DNA from: Coleofasciculaceae cyanobacterium
GTDB taxonomy: Bacteria > Cyanobacteriota > Cyanobacteriia > Cyanobacteriales > Xenococcaceae
Direction: 5' to 3'
Assembly (NCBI GenBank): GCA_036703275.1
Contig: DATNPK010000069.1
Location: 1 to 64,000, forward strand
DNA length: 64,000 bases
Part shown: piece by piece, positions 5,662 through 60,406 of the stretch
How the letters are laid out: each line of letters begins with the position of its first letter
Position numbering within the stretch: position 1 is the first letter of the stretch
Notes under the pieces: generated by a model
Seen by the model: only the letters and a program-made list of their open reading frames with translations
The model's database searches: none
Told to the model about the DNA's origin: nothing
Program-made: the position numbers and the translations under genes

Positions 5662-6564
5662 ATGGAGCGAAATTCTCAAGTCAAACTGCTCGATTTTAAA
5701 CGGGACAAGGCATCAAATGATTTTGTTCCTAATCCTGCCATTCTTTGCAGCACTCTAGGGGATGGTATTCATCTTGAACTTCATCAACAACCTGAATTTG
5801 AAACTAGCGAACACCAACATATCATGCACGTAATTGCTTGTGGCGTTGGCGATAGATTAGCACCAGGAGAGAGATTTCTCGATGGTAAAGTCCGCTCTGA
5901 AAGACGAGAGCGAGGAGATATTGCGATTATTCCCGCTGGTATTGCTCATCGTTGTAACTGGAAGATCTCAGCCGAGTTTGGTATTTTGGCGATCGATCCT
6001 TCACTGCTGCAACAAGTTGGTCGAGGTTTGGTAGATGGCGATCGCATCGAACTCATTCCCCAGTTTATGAACCAGCAAGATCGACTGATACAAGGAATTT
6101 TTGCCACTTTAAGGGATGAATTAGAGTCAAATCAAATTGCCGGTAGTTTATTGATTGATAGTCTAAAAACTACATTAGCAATTCATTTATTACGCAAATA
6201 TTGCCTTACGAAGCCCAAGCTTTCTAGTTACGGATCTGGCTTAGGTAAATTTAAGTTTAAACAAATAACTGAATATATCAACGAACATCTAGATAGCGAT
6301 CTCAAAGTCATTGAGCTAGCGGCGATCGCCCAAATGAGTCCTTATCACTTTATCCGTTTGTTTAAAAAAGCTTCGGCTCAAACACCACACCAGTATATTT
6401 TGCAGCGTCGAATTGAGAAAGGGAAATATTTATTGCAGCATAGTCAGTTGAGTACTGAAGAAATTGCAGCTAGCTTAAGATTTTGCGATCGCAGTCACTT
6501 TGCTAAATATCTCAAACGTTTTACTGGATTGACACCAAAACAACTTCAAGCTAAATCGCAATAA
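5662..6564 (+). CDS. AraC-family transcription regulator with cupin-like sensor domain
   Basis: A 300-residue regulator. The N-terminal half is a cupin-like sensory domain (TSEHQHIMHVIACGVGD, then RGDIAIIPAGIAHRCNW). The last 100 residues form the AraC double helix-turn-helix: DLKVIELAAIAQMSPYHFIRLFKK, then STEEIAASLRFCDRSHFAKYLKR and FTGLTPKQ. It should bind DNA as a dimer and respond to a small ligand or to stress. It lies 88 bp upstream of, and on the same strand as, the dienelactone-hydrolase gene, which is the most likely target or operon partner. Confidence 0.92.
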   Translation: MERNSQVKLLDFKRDKASNDFVPNPAILCSTLGDGIHLELHQQPEFETSEHQHIMHVIACGVGDRLAPGERFLDGKVRSERRERGDIAIIPAGIAHRCNWKISAEFGILAIDPSLLQQVGRGLVDGDRIELIPQFMNQQDRLIQGIFATLRDELESNQIAGSLLIDSLKTTLAIHLLRKYCLTKPKLSSYGSGLGKFKFKQITEYINEHLDSDLKVIELAAIAQMSPYHFIRLFKKASAQTPHQYILQRRIEKGKYLLQHSQLSTEEIAASLRFCDRSHFAKYLKRFTGLTPKQLQAKSQ

Positions 6565-6652
6565 TTTACCTAAAAAAAGCAACTTTTTTCTAGAGTTTGG
6601 AGAAGCAAGACTTTTAGACTATCAGCAGTAGAGAAAAGTTAAAGAGCTAAAA

Positions 6653-7531
6653 ATGAGCGATATCGACATTAAAACCACTCATGTCCGAGTACCAAACCAA
6701 GACTTACGGACAACATATGCGGAGCGGTATCCTTTAGGACAAGCCCCGCCCTTCGAGGGCGGGGATGCGTCCTTACAAATTGATGCTTACTTAGCACAAC
6801 CAGCAAGAGAGGGAAAATTTGCTGCGGTAATCGTTTTTCAGGAAATTTTTGGCGTAAACAGCAATATTAGAGAGATTGCCGAATTAATTGCCCAACAAGG
6901 TTATGTAGCAATAGCACCAGCGATGTATCAACGGATTGCTCCTGGTTTTAGCCGTGATTTTAGTCCTCAAGATCTTGCCTATAGTCCCGAAGCCTATCAA
7001 CTTGGTTTGCAATATTATCAACAAGTTAAGTATCGAGAAATATTCAGCGATATTCGAGCTGCGATCGCCTATCTTAAAACCTTACCCAATGTCAAAGCAG
7101 ATGCGATCGGCTGTATTGGCTTCTGTTTTGGCGGTCATGTTGCCTACATGGCTGCTACCTTACCCGATATCAAAGCTACGGCTTCATTTTACGGTGGTGG
7201 CATTACCACCTCTAGCTATGGTGAAGATGTTCCCACTATCGAGCGCACTGCCAAAATTCAGGGTACTATTTATCTGTTTTTTGGCACGAGAGATACTTTA
7301 GTGTCTCAGGAAGAAAGCCAACAAATTGAAGCAGAATTAGACAAACAACAAATCGATTATCGTCTATTTCGCTACGATGCAGGACACGGTTTTTTTGCTG
7401 GATTCTTTGAAGACAAGTATCCGTTTTTAAAACAACATCCAAGTTACAATTCTGAAGCTGCACCTCATGCTTGGCAACAGGTATTAGAACTTTTTCAAAA
7501 TAATTTATCAGACTGGGAAAGGGATTATTAG
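6653..7531 (+). CDS. Dienelactone hydrolase family protein with an in-frame repeat insertion
   Basis: This alpha/beta hydrolase has the DLH catalytic set: Glu64 in QEIFG, nucleophile Cys158 in GFCFGGH, Asp214 in GTRDTL and His245 in DAGHGFF. The family hydrolyses dienelactones or related esters in the cytosol. In relatives the sequence runs directly from VPN-D-L to LQIDAYLAQP. Here about 22 extra residues (19-40) are inserted, encoded by a palindromic repeat, without breaking the frame. The catalytic domain downstream is intact, so the enzyme is probably still made. It follows the AraC regulator and precedes a metallo-beta-lactamase-fold gene on the same strand. Confidence 0.9.
   Translation: MSDIDIKTTHVRVPNQDLRTTYAERYPLGQAPPFEGGDASLQIDAYLAQPAREGKFAAVIVFQEIFGVNSNIREIAELIAQQGYVAIAPAMYQRIAPGFSRDFSPQDLAYSPEAYQLGLQYYQQVKYREIFSDIRAAIAYLKTLPNVKADAIGCIGFCFGGHVAYMAATLPDIKATASFYGGGITTSSYGEDVPTIERTAKIQGTIYLFFGTRDTLVSQEESQQIEAELDKQQIDYRLFRYDAGHGFFAGFFEDKYPFLKQHPSYNSEAAPHAWQQVLELFQNNLSDWERDY
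6707..6772. repeat. 66-bp palindromic element inserted in frame in a hydrolase gene
   Basis: This segment contains a strong hairpin (CCCCGCCC TTCGA GGGCGGGG) and the module GCGGAGCGGTATCCTTTAGG. Nearly the same module recurs near 60225 (GCGGAGCGGTATGCTTTAGC) and in part near 28305 and 12238. Its length is a multiple of three and it contains no stop codon in this frame, so the host gene stays open. The codons TTA lie at both edges, compatible with a short target duplication. Confidence 0.75.
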
Positions 7532-7640
7532 CGGTACATCTTTGGAAAGATGCAATTTCACTACCGTCTTTTTTAGGATGGCAACACAAGCAAACATTTC
7601 CAAAAGTACGAATCAATCAGGGTGAGCCAAAAAAATAATC

Positions 7641-8465
7641 ATGAAAATTCATCATCTCAATTGTGGCTGTATGTGTCCCCTTGGTGGAGCGATTTTTGAT
7701 GGCTTTAGTCGCGGACTGAGCGCTCATCTTGTCTGTCATTGTCTGCTAATTGAGACGGAGCAAGGACTCGTTCTTATCGATACAGGCTTTGGATTGCGAG
7801 ATGTTCAGTCGCCTTACTCCCGACTTAGTTCTTTTTTCATTAATTTCAATCGCATCCAGTTCGATCGCCAGTACACGGCAGTCGATCGCATCGAACAACT
7901 CGGATTTTCGGCGCGAGATGTGCGTCATATTGTGCTTACCCATCTTGATTTTGACCATGCTGGAGGTCTGGAAGATTTTCCTGAAGCGATCGTTCACGTT
8001 ATGCAAACTGAAATGGATGCTGCTCGCGATCGCCGTGGCTTGATCTCAAGTCAACGCTATCGTTCAAAACAGTGGGACGAAGTTAAACACTGGCAATACT
8101 ATTCACCAGGAGGCGAACCTTGGTTTGGCTTTGAAGCGGTACGGAATCTCAAAGGACTACCGCCAGAAATTCTGCTAATTCCCCTTGTCGGACATACCCA
8201 TGGTCATGCTGGTATTGCGATCGAGACATCTGAAGGTTGGCTTCTCCATGCAGGGGATGCTTACTTTTATCGACAGGAAATGGATGCTAAACCACACTGT
8301 ACCCCTGGCTTCCGAGCCTATCAATGGATGATGGAGGTCGATCGCCAGGCTCGATTATTTAATCAAAATCGGTTGCGAGAATTATCCCTAGATCGTCAGA
8401 AAAACGTGCAGCTATTTTGTAGCCACGATGCCGTCGAATTTAAAGCGTTTGGCGATCGCGCATAA
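7641..8465 (+). CDS. Metallo-beta-lactamase-fold hydrolase (lactonase-like)
   Basis: A 274-residue MBL-fold enzyme. The first metal motif is THLDFDHAGG (His101, Asp103, Asp105, His106), the second region is GHTHGHAG, followed by HAGDAYF and the C-terminal CSHDAVEF. This is the layout of the N-acyl-homoserine-lactonase/AttM branch and its many relatives, which bind two metal ions and hydrolyse lactones or other esters. HLDFDH rather than HLHFDH is common in the wider group. Quorum quenching is only one possible role. It sits 109 bp after the dienelactone hydrolase on the same strand. Confidence 0.88.
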   Translation: MKIHHLNCGCMCPLGGAIFDGFSRGLSAHLVCHCLLIETEQGLVLIDTGFGLRDVQSPYSRLSSFFINFNRIQFDRQYTAVDRIEQLGFSARDVRHIVLTHLDFDHAGGLEDFPEAIVHVMQTEMDAARDRRGLISSQRYRSKQWDEVKHWQYYSPGGEPWFGFEAVRNLKGLPPEILLIPLVGHTHGHAGIAIETSEGWLLHAGDAYFYRQEMDAKPHCTPGFRAYQWMMEVDRQARLFNQNRLRELSLDRQKNVQLFCSHDAVEFKAFGDRA

Positions 8466-11667: not shown

Positions 11668-12212
11668 AAAAACTGTTTTTTAAAAAGGCAATTTACGATT
11701 AATAAAATAAGATTTCGTTGATGTCTCCATTGGTCTTGTTTAAATTTATTGATCTTAATTTTTCTAATAATGCAAACACTTAACTAAGCTTTGGTCATTA
11801 CCATTTTATTTATCTAAACCTGTATTTTTTGGTGGTAATTAACTAATATTATTTTCTAACGTTTTGGTAAATATCGACAATAGCAAGATTAATAATTACT
11901 TCTTGTAAAAACTGTCTTACAATTCGATATTTATCTAATGAAATAATTTACTTAGCGGTAATTATATAATCTTTTATTTGTAGAGTAGTAGTCATAAATT
12001 TGATTTCTATATATTTTAATAGTCTTAAAATCAAGAGCGATCGAGATATATACAGAGAAAGTAACAAGTAGCAAAAAAGGTAATAAGTAGTGGATAGGAG
12101 GTAGTAGATAGTAAGCAAAAACTCCAGTTTAGAAGATAATTCTTTATTAACAATTATTGCTCCAAGCTACACTTACAAGATCATTGATGATAATGCTTAT
12201 GCCCTAAAGGAC
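11668..12212. other. A/T-rich intergenic stretch, nothing recognised
   Basis: Both strands lack a convincing coding frame. Apart from the weak tandem-repeat-like segment near 12061-12116 I see no RNA gene, hairpin or promoter that stands out. Confidence 0.5.
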
Positions 12213-12353
12213 TCTATCACGGATACCGCTTCGCGACGCGGAGCGGTATGAAGTAAGCATTTGCCAATCGCGGATTCACGGATAAACCGCACTCCGCCCT
12301 TCGGTCTCGAAGCTTATCCGTGATAGACTAGCCCCGAGCCGTCCGTGATAGAC
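12213..12353. repeat. Modular palindromic element, GTGATAGA-ended version
   Basis: The block is bounded by a perfect 13-bp inverted repeat (TCTATCACGGATA at 12213-12225 and TATCCGTGATAGA at 12315-12327), with a further copy GTCCGTGATAGAC at 12341-12353. Inside are the palindrome TACCGCTTCGCGACGCGG and the module CGCACTCCGCCCTTCGGTCTC. That second module, with its left flank from AATC-CGGATTCACGGATAAA, recurs almost unchanged at about 28260. It is non-coding. Confidence 0.75.
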
Positions 12354-19990: not shown

Positions 19991-20097
19991 AAGTTTTAGT
20001 TTTACTACCATATCATCCTTCCGACTTTAGTCTGGTTGAATTACGAGCTACAGAACGTAATATATTAAAATAACCGTTTAAATTAGTAGCATATTTA

Positions 20098-21718
20098 ATG
20101 ATTGATTTTAATGAAGGTAATCTAACTGCGGGAACTATTGTTACAGACCAGTTCGAGGGTCTTAATATCTCTACCCCTTCCGAGTTTGGAGTTATGGTCT
20201 TTGATACGAATAATCCTACTGGAGAAGATTACGATCTTTCCGCTGAAAATCTGGAAAATGCCCTGATTATTTCTGAAGACGGAGACGCTTCTGATCCTGA
20301 TGATAATGCAGCAGGAGGAACGATCGATATTGAGTTTGATGAACTAACTACAGTTACGGAGATCGGACTGTTGGATATTGAAGAGTTAGGAAGTTCTGTC
20401 AGCTTGTTTGATGGCGACTCGAATTTAATTGAAGTCATAGAAATTGAACCTTTTGGCGATGGACGTAGTTTTGAGCTAGATATTTCCGATGTTTCAGGAG
20501 TAGCTCGCTTGGAACTCGATCTAGCAGGAAGTGGTGCATTGACCTCACTCAACTTCTTGCCAGAAGGTACAGATACTTCTAGCGGAGCAACCCAACTGAC
20601 TAACCTAGGCTGGGAGAAAAACGGACAACCGCTCGGTATCTGGACTAATAACAGTGATGTTGTTAAAGACTTAGTTTCAGGAATTGAAGTTGTCGATGCC
20701 GTAACAGCTAACACTTTGGCGGGAAATGACCTAATTGAAGGTTTAGTTAGCAGTGGGACAGGTTTATCTAAACGATGGAGCAATCATCACTGGCAGCGGT
20801 AACGACTCTCTTCAAGGGAGCGTAATCGGAGCTGGAAATGAGAATGTCGGCATCTTTAATTTTGGTGATTTTGGTGATGATCAAACCAGTATCAATACAG
20901 GAACAGGCGCTGATAAAATTGTTGGTACTGTCAAAATCCAAGGTGATGGAAATAACAACTTTGGTGTCATCAATGAATTATTTGGCTTAATTAACACCGA
21001 AGCAGGTGACGACCAAATTACTGGTACGGTTGAGGTCGCAGGAAACGGTGATTTTAATATAGGTTTTGACAATAGCATATTCGCTCTTACCGATACTGGC
21101 GCAGGTAGGGATCGAATTACTAGTACGGTTAAAGTTGACGGAGATGGGAATAATAACTTTGGTATTATCAACGGTGAAGCAAGTATCTCTGCTGGAAATG
21201 GCAACGATCAAATCATCAGTACTGTAGTGGTGGAAGGAGATGGCAGCGGTAACATTGGCATCACTAGTGGTCTTGGCGGCATCGATCTGGGTGCTGGCGA
21301 TGACTATCTTTACGGTGCTGTTGAAGTCGCAGGAGATGGGAATAATAACTTTGGTATCGAGAATACTGCTGTTAACTACATCCGTATGGGGTCTGGTAAT
21401 GACAGTATTGTTGGAAAAGGAGTAGATGCTTTTACTGGTTTTGGTGGTAGTCCTACTGGAGGATCTGGCTTTATTGACTTGGGCGAAGGCAATGATAAAA
21501 TCTCTGGTTTTGGTGTTAACCAAATCGTCGATGGTGGTACTGGCATAGATCTAGCTCAATTTCAATTTAGCCTAGATAAATCAATTACTTTCGGCAGCAG
21601 CGATGCAAACTCGATCGATATCACCGCAAATGAAGTAACCATGTCATTTACCAACGTGGAGGAATTTGCCTTTGCTAATGATTCCTTTACCCTCGATGAG
21701 CTGATTGATTTTGTTTAG
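20098..21718 (+). pseudogene. Acidic glycine-rich repeat protein, copy 1, frameshifted
   Basis: Two overlapping frames together encode a protein of about 540 residues. The first part is a domain beginning IDFNEGNLTAGTIVTDQFEG and containing SEDGDASDPDDNAAGGT, a type seen in secreted bacterial surface proteins. The second part has six units of about 33 residues with the core TGxGxDxIxGTVxVxGDGNxNxGI, reminiscent of RTX-type calcium-binding repeats. No N-terminal signal peptide is seen; type I secretion is possible. Comparison with copy 2 shows one extra base near 20765 (GGTTTATCTAAAC against GGTTTGCTAAAC) that moves the frame. It is therefore a pseudogene or a phase-variable gene, unless the base is a sequencing error. 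Confidence 0.8.
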
Positions 21719-21828
21719 TTAAGTTAATTCGAGCTATACCCTCGAAACTTATTGCCGCAGTTAGAATCGTGCTGTTGTGGATACACGAATCATTCTTACC
21801 GCGATCGCCGGGATGACTGTTTATGCTT

Positions 21829-21925
21829 CATCCCTTTTTTTAATTGCGTATTCTTTGAATCGCTCTAGATCCGCCATTACGGTAGACTCTAGCACTTCCC
21901 CGATTAAGCTATCTATTAGCTTTCT
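21829..21925 (-). pseudogene. Detached 3' fragment of the SRPBCC gene
   Basis: About 97 bases match the 3' end of the SRPBCC gene near 28620, with a single mismatch over the first roughly 85 bases before similarity fades. It encodes the last 30 or so codons but no start. It lies between the two repeat-protein copies. Its near identity implies a recent copying event over almost 7 kb. Confidence 0.85.
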
Positions 21926-21933
21926 AATTGGAA

Positions 21934-22014
21934 TGCAAAGAGACACCGATCGCACCTACACAAATTAAATTGTGCGTAATCGATATCTTATTTACTGTAT
22001 ACGTAAATATCTTT
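21934..22014. repeat. Second copy of the duplicated upstream region
   Basis: It matches 19916-19990 with a small insertion (AAATTAAATTGTG against AATAATTTTG). It marks the left edge of the second unit of the tandem duplication, about 2.02 kb from the first. Confidence 0.85.
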
Positions 22015-22195
22015 AAAGGAGAAGAATTAATTATTGGGACAGAGGAAAAGTTATTCTCAAATTACCAAATTAGGGGGCGAGCGCCACGTTCGAGTGTTAC
22101 TATAATATTTCATTTTTATCTTTAATTTAATTAAGTTACAAACTATACTACATTAATCAGATTATTACCAGAAACATTTAAATTTAGATACAACT

Positions 22196-23584
22196 GTGAT
22201 GATTAATTTTAATGAAGGTAATCTAACCGCGGAAACTATGATTACAGAACAGTTCGAGGATCTTAATATTTCTACTCCTTCCGAGTTTGGAGTTATGGTA
22301 TTTGATACTAACAATTCTACTGGAGAAGATCTTGACCCCTTGCCAGAAGATACAGATACTTCTGTCGGGGCAACCCAACTTACTAACATAGGCTGGGAGA
22401 GAGATGGTCAACCGCTAGGTACATGGACTAATGACAGTAATGTAGTTCGAGTCTTAGTTTCGGGAATTGAAGTTGCTGATGCCGTAACAGCTAATACTCT
22501 GGGCGGAAATGACCTAATTTATAGTGTAGTTAGTAGCGGGATAGGTTTGCTAAACGATGGCATACTCAACACTGGCAATGGTAACGACTCACTTAAAGGG
22601 AGAGTATTAGGAGATGGAAATGACAATATCGGCATCCTTAATGTTAATGATTTTGAAGGCAGTATCAATACTGGAACAGGTGCCGACCAAATTATTGGTA
22701 CTGTTGAAATCAATGGACGGGGAGACTCCAACACTGGAATCGTTAATGGCCTCATCGGCAATATCGACACGGAGAACAACAATGATCGAATAATCGGTAC
22801 TGTCAAAGTCAAAGGAGACGGAAGTTTTAACATCGGCATCTTCAGTGAAGGGTTAAACTCGATCGATACAGGAAGAGGTAAGGACCAAATTACTGGTATT
22901 GTTGAAATTCAAGGAAATGGAGACTCCAGTACAGGTTTCTTAAATAACAATTTCACTGATACCAATACAGGAAAAGGTGATGACCAAATTACTGGCATTG
23001 TTGAAATCGAAGGAAATGGGAATGATAACAATGGTATTATCAATGGCGAAGCAGGTATTAGCGCAGCAGCTGGCAATGATTATATTTACGGTTCGGTAGT
23101 AGTCGCAAAAGACGGCAGCGGCAACAGTGGCATTTCTAGTGGTATGGGTAGCATCGATATGGGTTCTGGCGATGACTATATTTATGGTGCTGTTGAAGTT
23201 AAAGGAAACGGGGATAACAACTTTGGCATCGATAATACTGCTGCTAACGTCATCCGTATGGGGTCTGGTGACGACAGAATTATTGGAGAAGGAGTAGATG
23301 CTTTTACTGGTTTTGGTGGTTCTGTTAATGGACCTGGCTTTATTAACTTGGACGAAGGCAATGATAAAATCTCTGGGTTTGGTCAGCAAATCGTCGATGG
23401 TGGTACTGGTACAGATCTAGCTGAATTTGAATTTAGCCTAGACGAATCAATAATTTTAGGCAGCAGCGATGCAAGCTCTATTGATATCACCGCAAATGAA
23501 GTAACCATGTCATTTACTAACGTAGAGGAATTTGCATTTGCTAACGGCTCTTTCACCTTCGATGAGTTGATTGCGTCTATTTGA
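22196..23584 (+). CDS. Acidic glycine-rich repeat protein, copy 2, intact frame
   Basis: A 462-residue paralogue of the preceding broken gene. The start INFNEGNLTAETMITEQFE is kept, but about 105-110 residues of the N-terminal domain are deleted, so NSTGEDLD runs straight into LPEDTDTS. It carries seven repeat units of about 33 residues, one more than copy 1, then the shared tail DGGTGTDLAEFEFSLDES and MSFTNVEEFAFANGSFT. The aspartate and glycine pattern suggests calcium binding and a beta-roll fold. No signal peptide is visible, so export by a type I system would be needed. The role is unknown; an extracellular surface or matrix protein is a reasonable guess. Confidence 0.75.
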   Translation: MMINFNEGNLTAETMITEQFEDLNISTPSEFGVMVFDTNNSTGEDLDPLPEDTDTSVGATQLTNIGWERDGQPLGTWTNDSNVVRVLVSGIEVADAVTANTLGGNDLIYSVVSSGIGLLNDGILNTGNGNDSLKGRVLGDGNDNIGILNVNDFEGSINTGTGADQIIGTVEINGRGDSNTGIVNGLIGNIDTENNNDRIIGTVKVKGDGSFNIGIFSEGLNSIDTGRGKDQITGIVEIQGNGDSSTGFLNNNFTDTNTGKGDDQITGIVEIEGNGNDNNGIINGEAGISAAAGNDYIYGSVVVAKDGSGNSGISSGMGSIDMGSGDDYIYGAVEVKGNGDNNFGIDNTAANVIRMGSGDDRIIGEGVDAFTGFGGSVNGPGFINLDEGNDKISGFGQQIVDGGTGTDLAEFEFSLDESIILGSSDASSIDITANEVTMSFTNVEEFAFANGSFTFDELIASI

Positions 23585-24248
23585 TTTAATTTGCTCTAAT
23601 ACAGCCTGAAATTTATTGCTGCATTTAGAATCGCGCTGTGGGATACGCCCTGTCCTCATGGCAATCAAAGGATGACTGCTTATAAAGCAAGTGATCTATA
23701 GATTAGGACGTTAGTTATAAAACGAGCTATTAGCTGCGCAAAGCAAGGCAATGCTGCGTCGTCGTCTTACGACGCGCTGCGCTATTATTCTATTCGTCTA
23801 CTGTTACATTATTTGAGATTTGATACCGTGCAATTTTCTGTTTAATAGCATTATGCACTCACCAACGCCAATCAAAAATCAAAACATAGGACATTGCCAC
23901 TGGGGCTTCTTAGATTAATACGAAGCTAAAGTTAAAAAGGATTTACGGTCAGCGATAATCAAAAAGTTCCAGGTGATATGACTGTGATAAATATTTATGC
24001 TGCGGTTGAAGAATTTTGGCGATCGCTACACGCCTTGGCGTAGCCAAGATCGCATTTGAAAAAAAGCCGATTGTAACCAGCGATTGCTAACTGAAACAAG
24101 CGATTACTGTTCCGCTTGCTGTCCTTAATCTAAACTCCAGTTACGTTTATTTCTTTGGTGTTTGATGTTGTTGATGTATGGAAATACTTCACAATTAGAA
24201 ACATTATCTAACTGAGAAAATCAACCGCGATTGCTCTATCTTTGCAGA
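23585..24248. repeat. Intergenic stretch with repeat hairpins, no gene
   Basis: The first 100 bases still resemble the region after copy 1 (TTATTGC-GCA-TTAGAATCG), supporting a tandem duplication. A 7-bp hairpin GCGTCGT/ACGACGC lies at 23756-23775. A palindromic CTACACGCCTTGGCGTAG lies near 24027. I found no convincing coding frame. The segment TACGAAGCTAAA-AAAAAGGATTTA near 23921 is similar to one near 27995. Confidence 0.5.
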
Positions 24249-28021: not shown

Positions 28022-28503
28022 TTAAGTTTTGTAGTAAAAGTTGAATGAAGTTGAAGCTATTATCCTTAACCCTTTAGAAATTGTCCGAGGGCTAATAGGC
28101 TCTCCCCACAACACAGCCATTTGACACTGTGTTTTTTCACCATTCCGTTCGGCAAATTTCTCGAATGCTTGCCAATCAGTTATTTTCGCTTTTGTACGCT
28201 TAGGGCGGTTCGATAATGGATGATAATCCCCTGTTTCTTGCCTTCGCTTAAGCCATATGCCAATCACGGATTCACGGATAAACCGCACTCCGCCCTTCGG
28301 TCTCGGAGCGGTATGCTTTAGCATTTGCGAAGCTTATCCTTTAGGACTAACTTCGGGTCGCGCTTCGCGTCGTCCTTTAGGACAAATCAATTGTATTTCG
28401 GCAAAGAATGAAATATTTCGGCTGCTTGGCTTTTCTTCCATCCATCTAACTCGAGCGCTCGAATTACTTTTTGGCGTAAATCATAACTGTAGGCTTTTGC
28501 CAT
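28022..28503 (-). pseudogene. IS630-family transposase remnant, split by a palindromic element
   Basis: From ATG 28503 the minus strand reads MAKAYSYDLRQKVIRALELD then GWKKSQAAEIFH, the IS630 helix-turn-helix start. Coding resumes after an insertion with LKRRQETGDYHPLSNRPKR, TKAKITDWQAFEKFAERNG and SPRTISKGLRII, and then loses similarity. Removing the inserted element rejoins IDL and WLKRRQ. The catalytic DDE part is absent. It is a dead, truncated transposase. Confidence 0.85.
28254..28381. repeat. Palindromic element of about 128 bp inside the IS630 remnant
   Basis: The insert contains AATCACGGATTCACGGATAA, the module CGCACTCCGCCCTTCGGTCTC, GGAGCGGTATGCTTTAGCAT and two copies of TCCTTTAGGAC. 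The first two modules are also in the element at 12213-12353, and GGAGCGGTATGCTTTAGCA is also at about 60229. The join points are deduced from the transposase reading frame on each side and are accurate to a few bases. Confidence 0.75.
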
Positions 28504-59971: not shown

Positions 59972-60406
59972 AAATAACAGCTAATTTCTCTAAAAAGCAA
60001 ATGTAAGATAAATATTATAATAATGTTATGTTAATAAAATAATACTTTAAAATGACGGTGTTGCTGATTAGGTAATGATATAAACTAGTCAACCTCCTTC
60101 GGGGGAATTCAAAATTCAACCAGCGAGTCCCTGAACGGATTCCGTGCATGATTAGCCCTAAAGGATTAGAAGTTCGCGTCACACGAAGTTAGTCCGTGCA
60201 TGATAAGCTTCGCCCTAAAGGATATGCGGAGCGGTATGCTTTAGCACTAGCTTCGCGTCGCAAATCATGCACGGGCATATCGCGTCACCGCTTCGCGACG
60301 CGAAGCTAGTCGAAGACTCAGCTTATACTAAAGCCCTGCATTAGTGTAGCAACCAAGAAATATAAATCAATAGTTACACTAAAACCGAAAATGTTTATAC
60401 CAGAGG
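59972..60406. repeat. Cluster of palindromic elements (CCGTGCATGAT-ended version)
   Basis: The core at about 60140-60310 has TCCGTGCATGAT twice in direct orientation (60141 and 60193) and ATCATGCACGG once inverted (60264). Inside are CCCTAAAGGAT twice, GCGGAGCGGTATGCTTTAGC, CTAGCTTCGCGTCGC and ACCGCTTCGCGACGCGAAGC. The internal words recur in the elements near 6715, 12228, 28305 and 43070, but the terminal repeat is a different one. It is non-coding. Confidence 0.8.

Follow-up and report, generated by a model that had tools for sequence, protein, structure and literature searches.

A composite insertion in a dienelactone hydrolase gene

The dienelactone hydrolase (DLH) gene of this coccoid, Xenococcaceae-type cyanobacterium carries a lineage-specific insertion of 69 bp, in which a 24-bp repeat is nested within a 45-bp hairpin element, an identification of the two repeats that we make with great confidence. 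The overall account, in which two repeats of the family were inserted one within the other, moved precisely beside an AC and were tolerated in frame, appears very probable. The main features of the window, by which we mean the whole 64,000-nucleotide stretch that was analysed, are collected with their coordinates in Table 1.

The N-terminus of the source DLH reads VPNQDL-RTTYAERYPLGQAPPFEGGDASL-QIDAYLAQPA. At the same position three congeners that share 87-90% DNA identity with the source (G002, G003 and G006) have the unbroken sequence VPNQDLQIDAYLAQP, and a fourth at 78% identity (G009) has the unbroken sequence IPNQDIQIDAYLAQP. An earlier, sequence-only reading of the window had noticed the extra residues, which are real, but had sized them at 66 bp and 22 codons with boundaries at 6707-6772; alignment to the clean empty sites of the four congeners corrects the size to 69 bp and 23 codons and the boundaries to those in Table 1. 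The unbroken VPNxDLQIDAYLA turn is present in 29 of 29 DLH homologues with a parsable N-terminus, whose range runs from members of the genus to further families of the order, and none of them carries the inserted residues, which the sequence-only reading had said would mark an ancestral loop. That the 23 residues are such a loop, lost in the congeners, has next to no probability given the short turn in every one of these homologues and the make-up of the inserted DNA, which consists of repeats with many copies elsewhere in the genome. The assembly is a draft of 116 contigs, which leaves some room for an artefact or a local misassembly induced by repeats, but the reading frame is kept, the flanks are colinear with those of the congeners and many genomes that were assembled independently carry the same element types at precise sites, making this explanation highly improbable.

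The Pfam DLH match, covering residues 43-283 with 183 bits, begins downstream of the insert. Cys158 (in GFCFGG), Asp214 (GTRDT) and His245 (AGHGF), which we assign by motif as the catalytic residues, are all present, as had been claimed before. Pairwise dN/dS between the source and its congeners was 0.12-0.16, and 0.11-0.14 among the empty-site congeners, which shows no marked relaxation, although the measure is of limited power where an event is recent and mostly reflects history before the insertion. The source genome encodes a second member of the DLH family at 55% identity, so tolerance of the insert may in part reflect redundancy. A hairpin is predicted in the inserted segment (fold z = -3.0), and an Rfam scan of positions 6000-8000 returned no matches. 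A single-sequence structure prediction of the DLH had a pLDDT of 38 and was discarded.

Table 1 Coordinates of the DLH gene, its composite insertion and related repeat clusters in the window
Feature	Position	Strand	Basis or remark
Dienelactone hydrolase (DLH) gene	6653..7531	+	292 aa, intact despite insertion; Cys158, Asp214, His245 by motif
Net 69-bp insertion, 23 codons	6708..6776 (equivalently 6703-6771)	+	Filled/empty alignment against four congeners
CTTAC at insertion point, pre-existing site	6703..6707	+	Congener alignment
Left piece of 45-bp element, GGACAAC	6708..6714	+	Alignment to other copies
24-bp small dispersed repeat ATATGCGGAGCGGTATCCTTTAGG, nested	6715..6738	+	Unit length from filled/empty pairs elsewhere; hairpin covariation
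Right piece of 45-bp element, ACAAGCCCCGCCCTTCGAGGGCGGGGATGCGTCCTTAC	6739..6776	+	With 6708-6714 exactly 45 nt; gap-free against ten copies; covarying stems
Second CTTAC, taken as right end of 45-bp element (CTYAC)	6772..6776	+	CTYAC kept in copies whose left flank differs from CTTAC
Cluster of related modules including variant CGGAGCGGTATGCTTTAGCA	28304..28382	+	Repeat search of window
Clustered related modules, among them ATATGCGGAGCGGTATGCTTTAGCA (60222-60246)	60160..60310	+	Repeat search of window

The 45-bp hairpin element

Removal of the 24-bp repeat from the DLH insert leaves a sequence of 45 bp, GGACAACACAAGCCCCGCCCTTCGAGGGCGGGGATGCGTCCTTAC. Ten further copies from the family align to it gap-free (consensus GGGGCGTACAAGCCCCGCCCTTCGAGGGCGGGGACAGCCCCTTAC). 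The sequence-only reading had described a hairpin-bearing segment with a recurring module; both are present, but they belong to different elements, one nested in the other. Several genomes of the family carry the 45-bp element, whose stems covary. Complementary change on both sides was found at 5 of 14 pairs, against 1.9 in shuffled alignments, a value that none of 500 shuffles reached; the signal vanished when the pairing partners were slid. The DLH copy departs from the consensus in the outer stem.

The insert is flanked on both sides by CTTAC. The first of these corresponds to CTTAC in G002 and G006, TTTAC in G003 and TATAC in G009, and is single in the empty site. For this one copy two readings of the second CTTAC would fit, a 5-bp target duplication or the right end of the element itself. 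Other copies of the 45-bp element end in CTYAC next to left flanks of GTCAC, TTGAC, GGTAC and GTGAC, and since this ending is kept with any left flank we prefer to read the second CTTAC as the element's own end, placed behind a resident TTAC. A MITE or IS remnant moved by a DDE transposase would explain the paired CTTAC as its target duplication and could also draw on the complementary ends of the insert, GGAC/GTCC. It is nevertheless an unlikely origin, as the ending that is independent of the left flank makes CTTAC look like a part of the element and the clean 24-bp pairs described below show no duplication; assignment to the DDE-type MITEs fails on these two points.

A second copy of the 45-bp element in the source genome lies in frame in the circadian input gene ldpA (C96:82672). 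Around the site this gene is exactly 45 bp longer than its closest homologue (G012), with flanks of GTCAC and CTTAC, and the element is translated as QAPPFEGGDSSL, the same reading as in DLH. With the insert in place LdpA scores 547.6 bits against an equivalog cut-off of 450. Tolerance here is unsurprising, because the site sits in a linker of variable length, and the alignment carries less certainty than that at DLH.

The two repeats might also have entered DLH in a single step, as a preformed 69-bp composite copied from elsewhere. They are found together, these genomes hold many nested and composite repeats, and a composite found once does not force two steps. On the other hand, the source genome holds no second copy of the composite, the 24-bp and 45-bp repeats each occur alone, and what is left without the 24 bp is a gap-free 45-bp element; we consider one-step insertion improbable. 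Under the preferred reading of two insertions, the anatomy suggests that the 45-bp element probably preceded the 24-bp repeat. The 45-bp element would have inserted just 3' of TTAC, where the first strand of DLH turns into the second, and the 24-bp element would then have entered the left loop of its hairpin, just 5' of ACAAG. Since 24 and 45 are both divisible by three, the reading frame of the gene stays open; each step, 15 residues and then eight, would have been added without a frameshift because of these lengths and of phases free of stops. The 24-bp repeat is read in DLH as (T)YAERYPLG(Q), and the inserted residues may sit in a tolerated surface turn of the protein.

Unit, distribution and fold of the 24-bp repeat

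To define the boundaries of the 24-bp repeat, we set copies from the source genome and from its relatives in the family against empty sites, orthologous or paralogous, in a flank search that left out L028 and the first L138 copy. Twelve of 13 such copies gave clean pairs, each with exactly 24 additional bp, ATATGCGNAGCGGTATCCTTTAGG; the remaining comparison (L019) is a compound change without a clean alignment. The ileS gene of G009 provides a further clean case. A target duplication was looked for in the clean pairs and none was found. In most of them AC follows directly on the 3' side of the repeat and is present in the empty site as well, and AC directly follows the repeat in 29 of 33 copies of the source genome.

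The repeat is abundant and restricted in its distribution. The module TATGCGGAGCGGTATCCTTTAGGA is found at 145 places in the 5.6-Mb genome within three mismatches of its 21-bp core, compared with 0 places for the reversed 21-mer in the same genome. An exact 26-bp string, the repeat followed by AC, was found in 69 DNA stretches among 84,980 species, all of Xenococcaceae/Pleurocapsales type, and a looser pattern matched 24 of the 27 genomes of the source's family, the source included, and 0 of 33 genomes from other families of the order. The recurrence of the module at 28305 and 60225, reported by the sequence-only reading, was confirmed, near 28304 and 60226, in the form of the variant CGGAGCGGTATGCTTTAGCA.

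Several other repeat arrangements were observed. A compact cluster of related modules (for example ACGGATACCGCTTCGCGACGCGGAGCGGTATGAAG and CCGCACTCCGCCCTTCGGTCTCG) occupies window positions 12190-12330, and part of it recurs at 28254-28309 with 95% identity. Window positions 20000-23600, which are likely to be repetitive coding sequence, hold tandem, diverged repeats of 43-300 nt with spacings of about 96-99 and 1870 bp. L007, L004 and L017, with matches in G001, G004, G009 and G012, carry a further palindromic repeat, GGTCAGAGCAGGCTCCGTCGTTTTA...CGGCGGAGTAATCTCTGAC; it has the 24-bp repeat in its loop at some places and apparently lacks it at others, a second case of nesting.

To examine the fold of the 24-bp repeat we used 42 distinct variants, chosen by similarity. 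Strong two-sided complementary change was confined to column pairs 17-24, in 12 variants (for example TCCTTTAGGA to TGCTTTAGCA), and 5-11, in seven (GCGNAGC to CCGAAGG), counts that differ from numbers of independent events in variants that share ancestry. Of the loop bases, G7 and A9 stay constant in 41 of the 42 variants, and all four bases occur at N8. The covariation, for which an independent count was also made, supports two tiny hairpins in tandem, one of them of the d(GCGNAGC) type. Extraordinarily stable mini-hairpins of single-stranded DNA follow a rule of a GNA loop with at least two G-C pairs, and the GCGAAGC hairpin melts at 78 °C (PMC4686876). We infer that the d(GCGNAGC) fold may be what matters to the repeat. 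Energy programs predict little stability for it.

Copies within genes

Four of the six phases of the 24-bp repeat are open (YAERYPLG, ICGAVSFR, PKGYRSAY and VLKDTAPH) and two contain a stop. Among 97 copies evaluated, 22 lie within long reading frames, which we defined after joining the flanks, to keep stops in the repeat from biasing the choice. All but one of the 22 use an open phase (P = 0.0016, with one third expected in the stop phases), and between them the copies in genes use four different open phases. The hosts include DLH, IleS, NRPS-type synthetases, several transposases, TnpB proteins and a large protein that matches TamB weakly. The proposal that a small mobile repeat had entered the DLH gene and been tolerated as protein, which the sequence-only reading had suggested following up with an alignment for the empty site and a search of other coding genes and their phases, is thus borne out by the empty sites and by the many copies in genes, except that the insert is a composite of 24 within 45 bp.

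Three of the in-frame copies (L117, L135 and L138) are in TnpB (OrfB_IS605) genes, near or inside conserved domains. In ileS, the 24-bp unit interrupts one and the same codon junction in the source (G000:C94:35742-36324, L258) and G009 (L255), a junction that is empty in seven congeners. The source IleS is 88-93% identical to the empty-site forms and 85% to that of G009, and the shared junction is for this reason read as two independent hits or as repeated precise loss. The same insertion with identical flanks is present in two genomes of the genus, at L188 (G012:C96) and L189 (G009:C4), which suggests recent horizontal transfer of the host gene.

Comparison with known repeats

Elhai et al. 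2008 (Genome Res 18:1484) reportedly described small dispersed repeats of 21-27 nt in Nostoc punctiforme, SDR1-SDR8, with many dispersed copies. These are said to nest in other small repeats, to be confined to one cyanobacterial subgroup and to have predicted hairpins with compensatory changes. The 24-bp unit falls within this size range, is dispersed and has precise boundaries, and it shares the predicted hairpins with compensatory changes (pairs 5-11 and 17-24), the nesting and the restriction to a subgroup. It differs in its lineage, the Xenococcaceae, and in its target, which contains AC and is not HIP1, the site into which a precise insertion of SDR5 is cited (PMC4390886). In behaviour the repeat is closest to the Nostoc SDRs.

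Insertion elements of the IS200/IS605 group have hairpin ends and place themselves 3' of short targets, TTAC for example, which they do not duplicate. On our reading the repeats described here resemble them in insertion at a short target such as TTAC, in the lack of target duplication and in the hairpins, and differ in being far shorter, in lacking coding capacity and in having no demonstrated dependence on a Y1 enzyme. REP and REPIN sequences, of about 20-65 nt, are likewise short hairpins at short target motifs and are mobilised by TnpA_REP (RAYT) (PMC3116915, PMC6006769). The repeats share the short hairpins at short targets, and the reverse strand of the 45-bp element begins with GTRA, near to the REP foot GT[AG]G that lies 5' of the hairpin. 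By the criterion of PMC6006769, however, its foot is GTAA/GTGA and not GTAG/GTGG, and its basal stem is 5 bp; the 24-bp repeat is preceded only by a GT that the target supplies, and in two genomes (G000 and G014) no Y1 gene has paired flanking copies. Membership of the REP/REPIN class was rejected on the GT[AG]G foot and, for these two genomes, on the cognate gene. Rickettsia palindromic elements are palindromes found in frame in the genes of otherwise functional proteins (PMC10969869, PMC3733652). The in-frame palindromic insertion is common to both, here in DLH, ldpA and ileS; by description the Rickettsia elements are set apart by their length of about 100-150 bp, against 24 and 45 bp in nested form, and by belonging to another phylum. 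The repeats described here appear to be a new family of SDR/REP-like kind, with a clean nested example in frame.

A possible mechanism of movement

The evidence for movement consists of presence and absence between species, and from it we propose the following. Folded into a tandem pair of mini-hairpins, of which one has the highly stable GCGNAGC form, the 24-bp element would be recognised as single-stranded DNA (or RNA) by a mobilising enzyme supplied in trans, and would insert precisely beside a short AC-containing target without duplicating it. Copies that break genes would then be removed by selection. Our best guess for the mobilisation is a process like that of Y1/HUH enzymes or of the small dispersed repeats. 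A Y1/HUH enzyme would be a plausible choice, since IS200/IS605 enzymes, like TnpA_REP, work on hairpins beside short target motifs, and since in-frame REP insertions have been described in tnpA_REP genes of Y1 subclass 2.4, a subclass common in cyanobacteria, and REP insertions have been reported from unrelated genes too (PMC6006769). Y1 genes are present in all genomes of the family. Across 27 genomes the copy number of the 24-bp repeat showed no correlation with the number of Y1 transposase genes (rho -0.09) or of reverse transcriptase genes (rho -0.02). The 28 Y1 loci of G000 and G014 were scanned and had no paired flanking copies; one 24-bp repeat and one weak 45-bp element lie near them. 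We put forward movement through single-stranded DNA as a tentative mechanism, with a probability well short of even.

A fuller and still more speculative proposal, which we think somewhat unlikely as a whole, is that an element of 24 nt moves as a folded single strand and ranks among the smallest mobile units known. Its defining feature would be a d(GCGNAGC) mini-hairpin in which only N is free, and it would insert precisely beside AC without target duplication; its codon-neutral length would let it invade essential genes, where it would be read as a peptide cassette of eight residues, and nest in other codon-neutral repeats.

How the smallest mobile repeats, of 20-50 nt, move is an old question that has stayed open because their boundaries and targets are hard to define. 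The filled and empty pairs fix the units at 24 and 45 bp, suggest a target and point to selection on the folded structure. The copies in IleS, LdpA, DLH and the NRPS proteins are test cases for how proteins absorb short peptides, for which the sister species offer exact pre-insertion controls.
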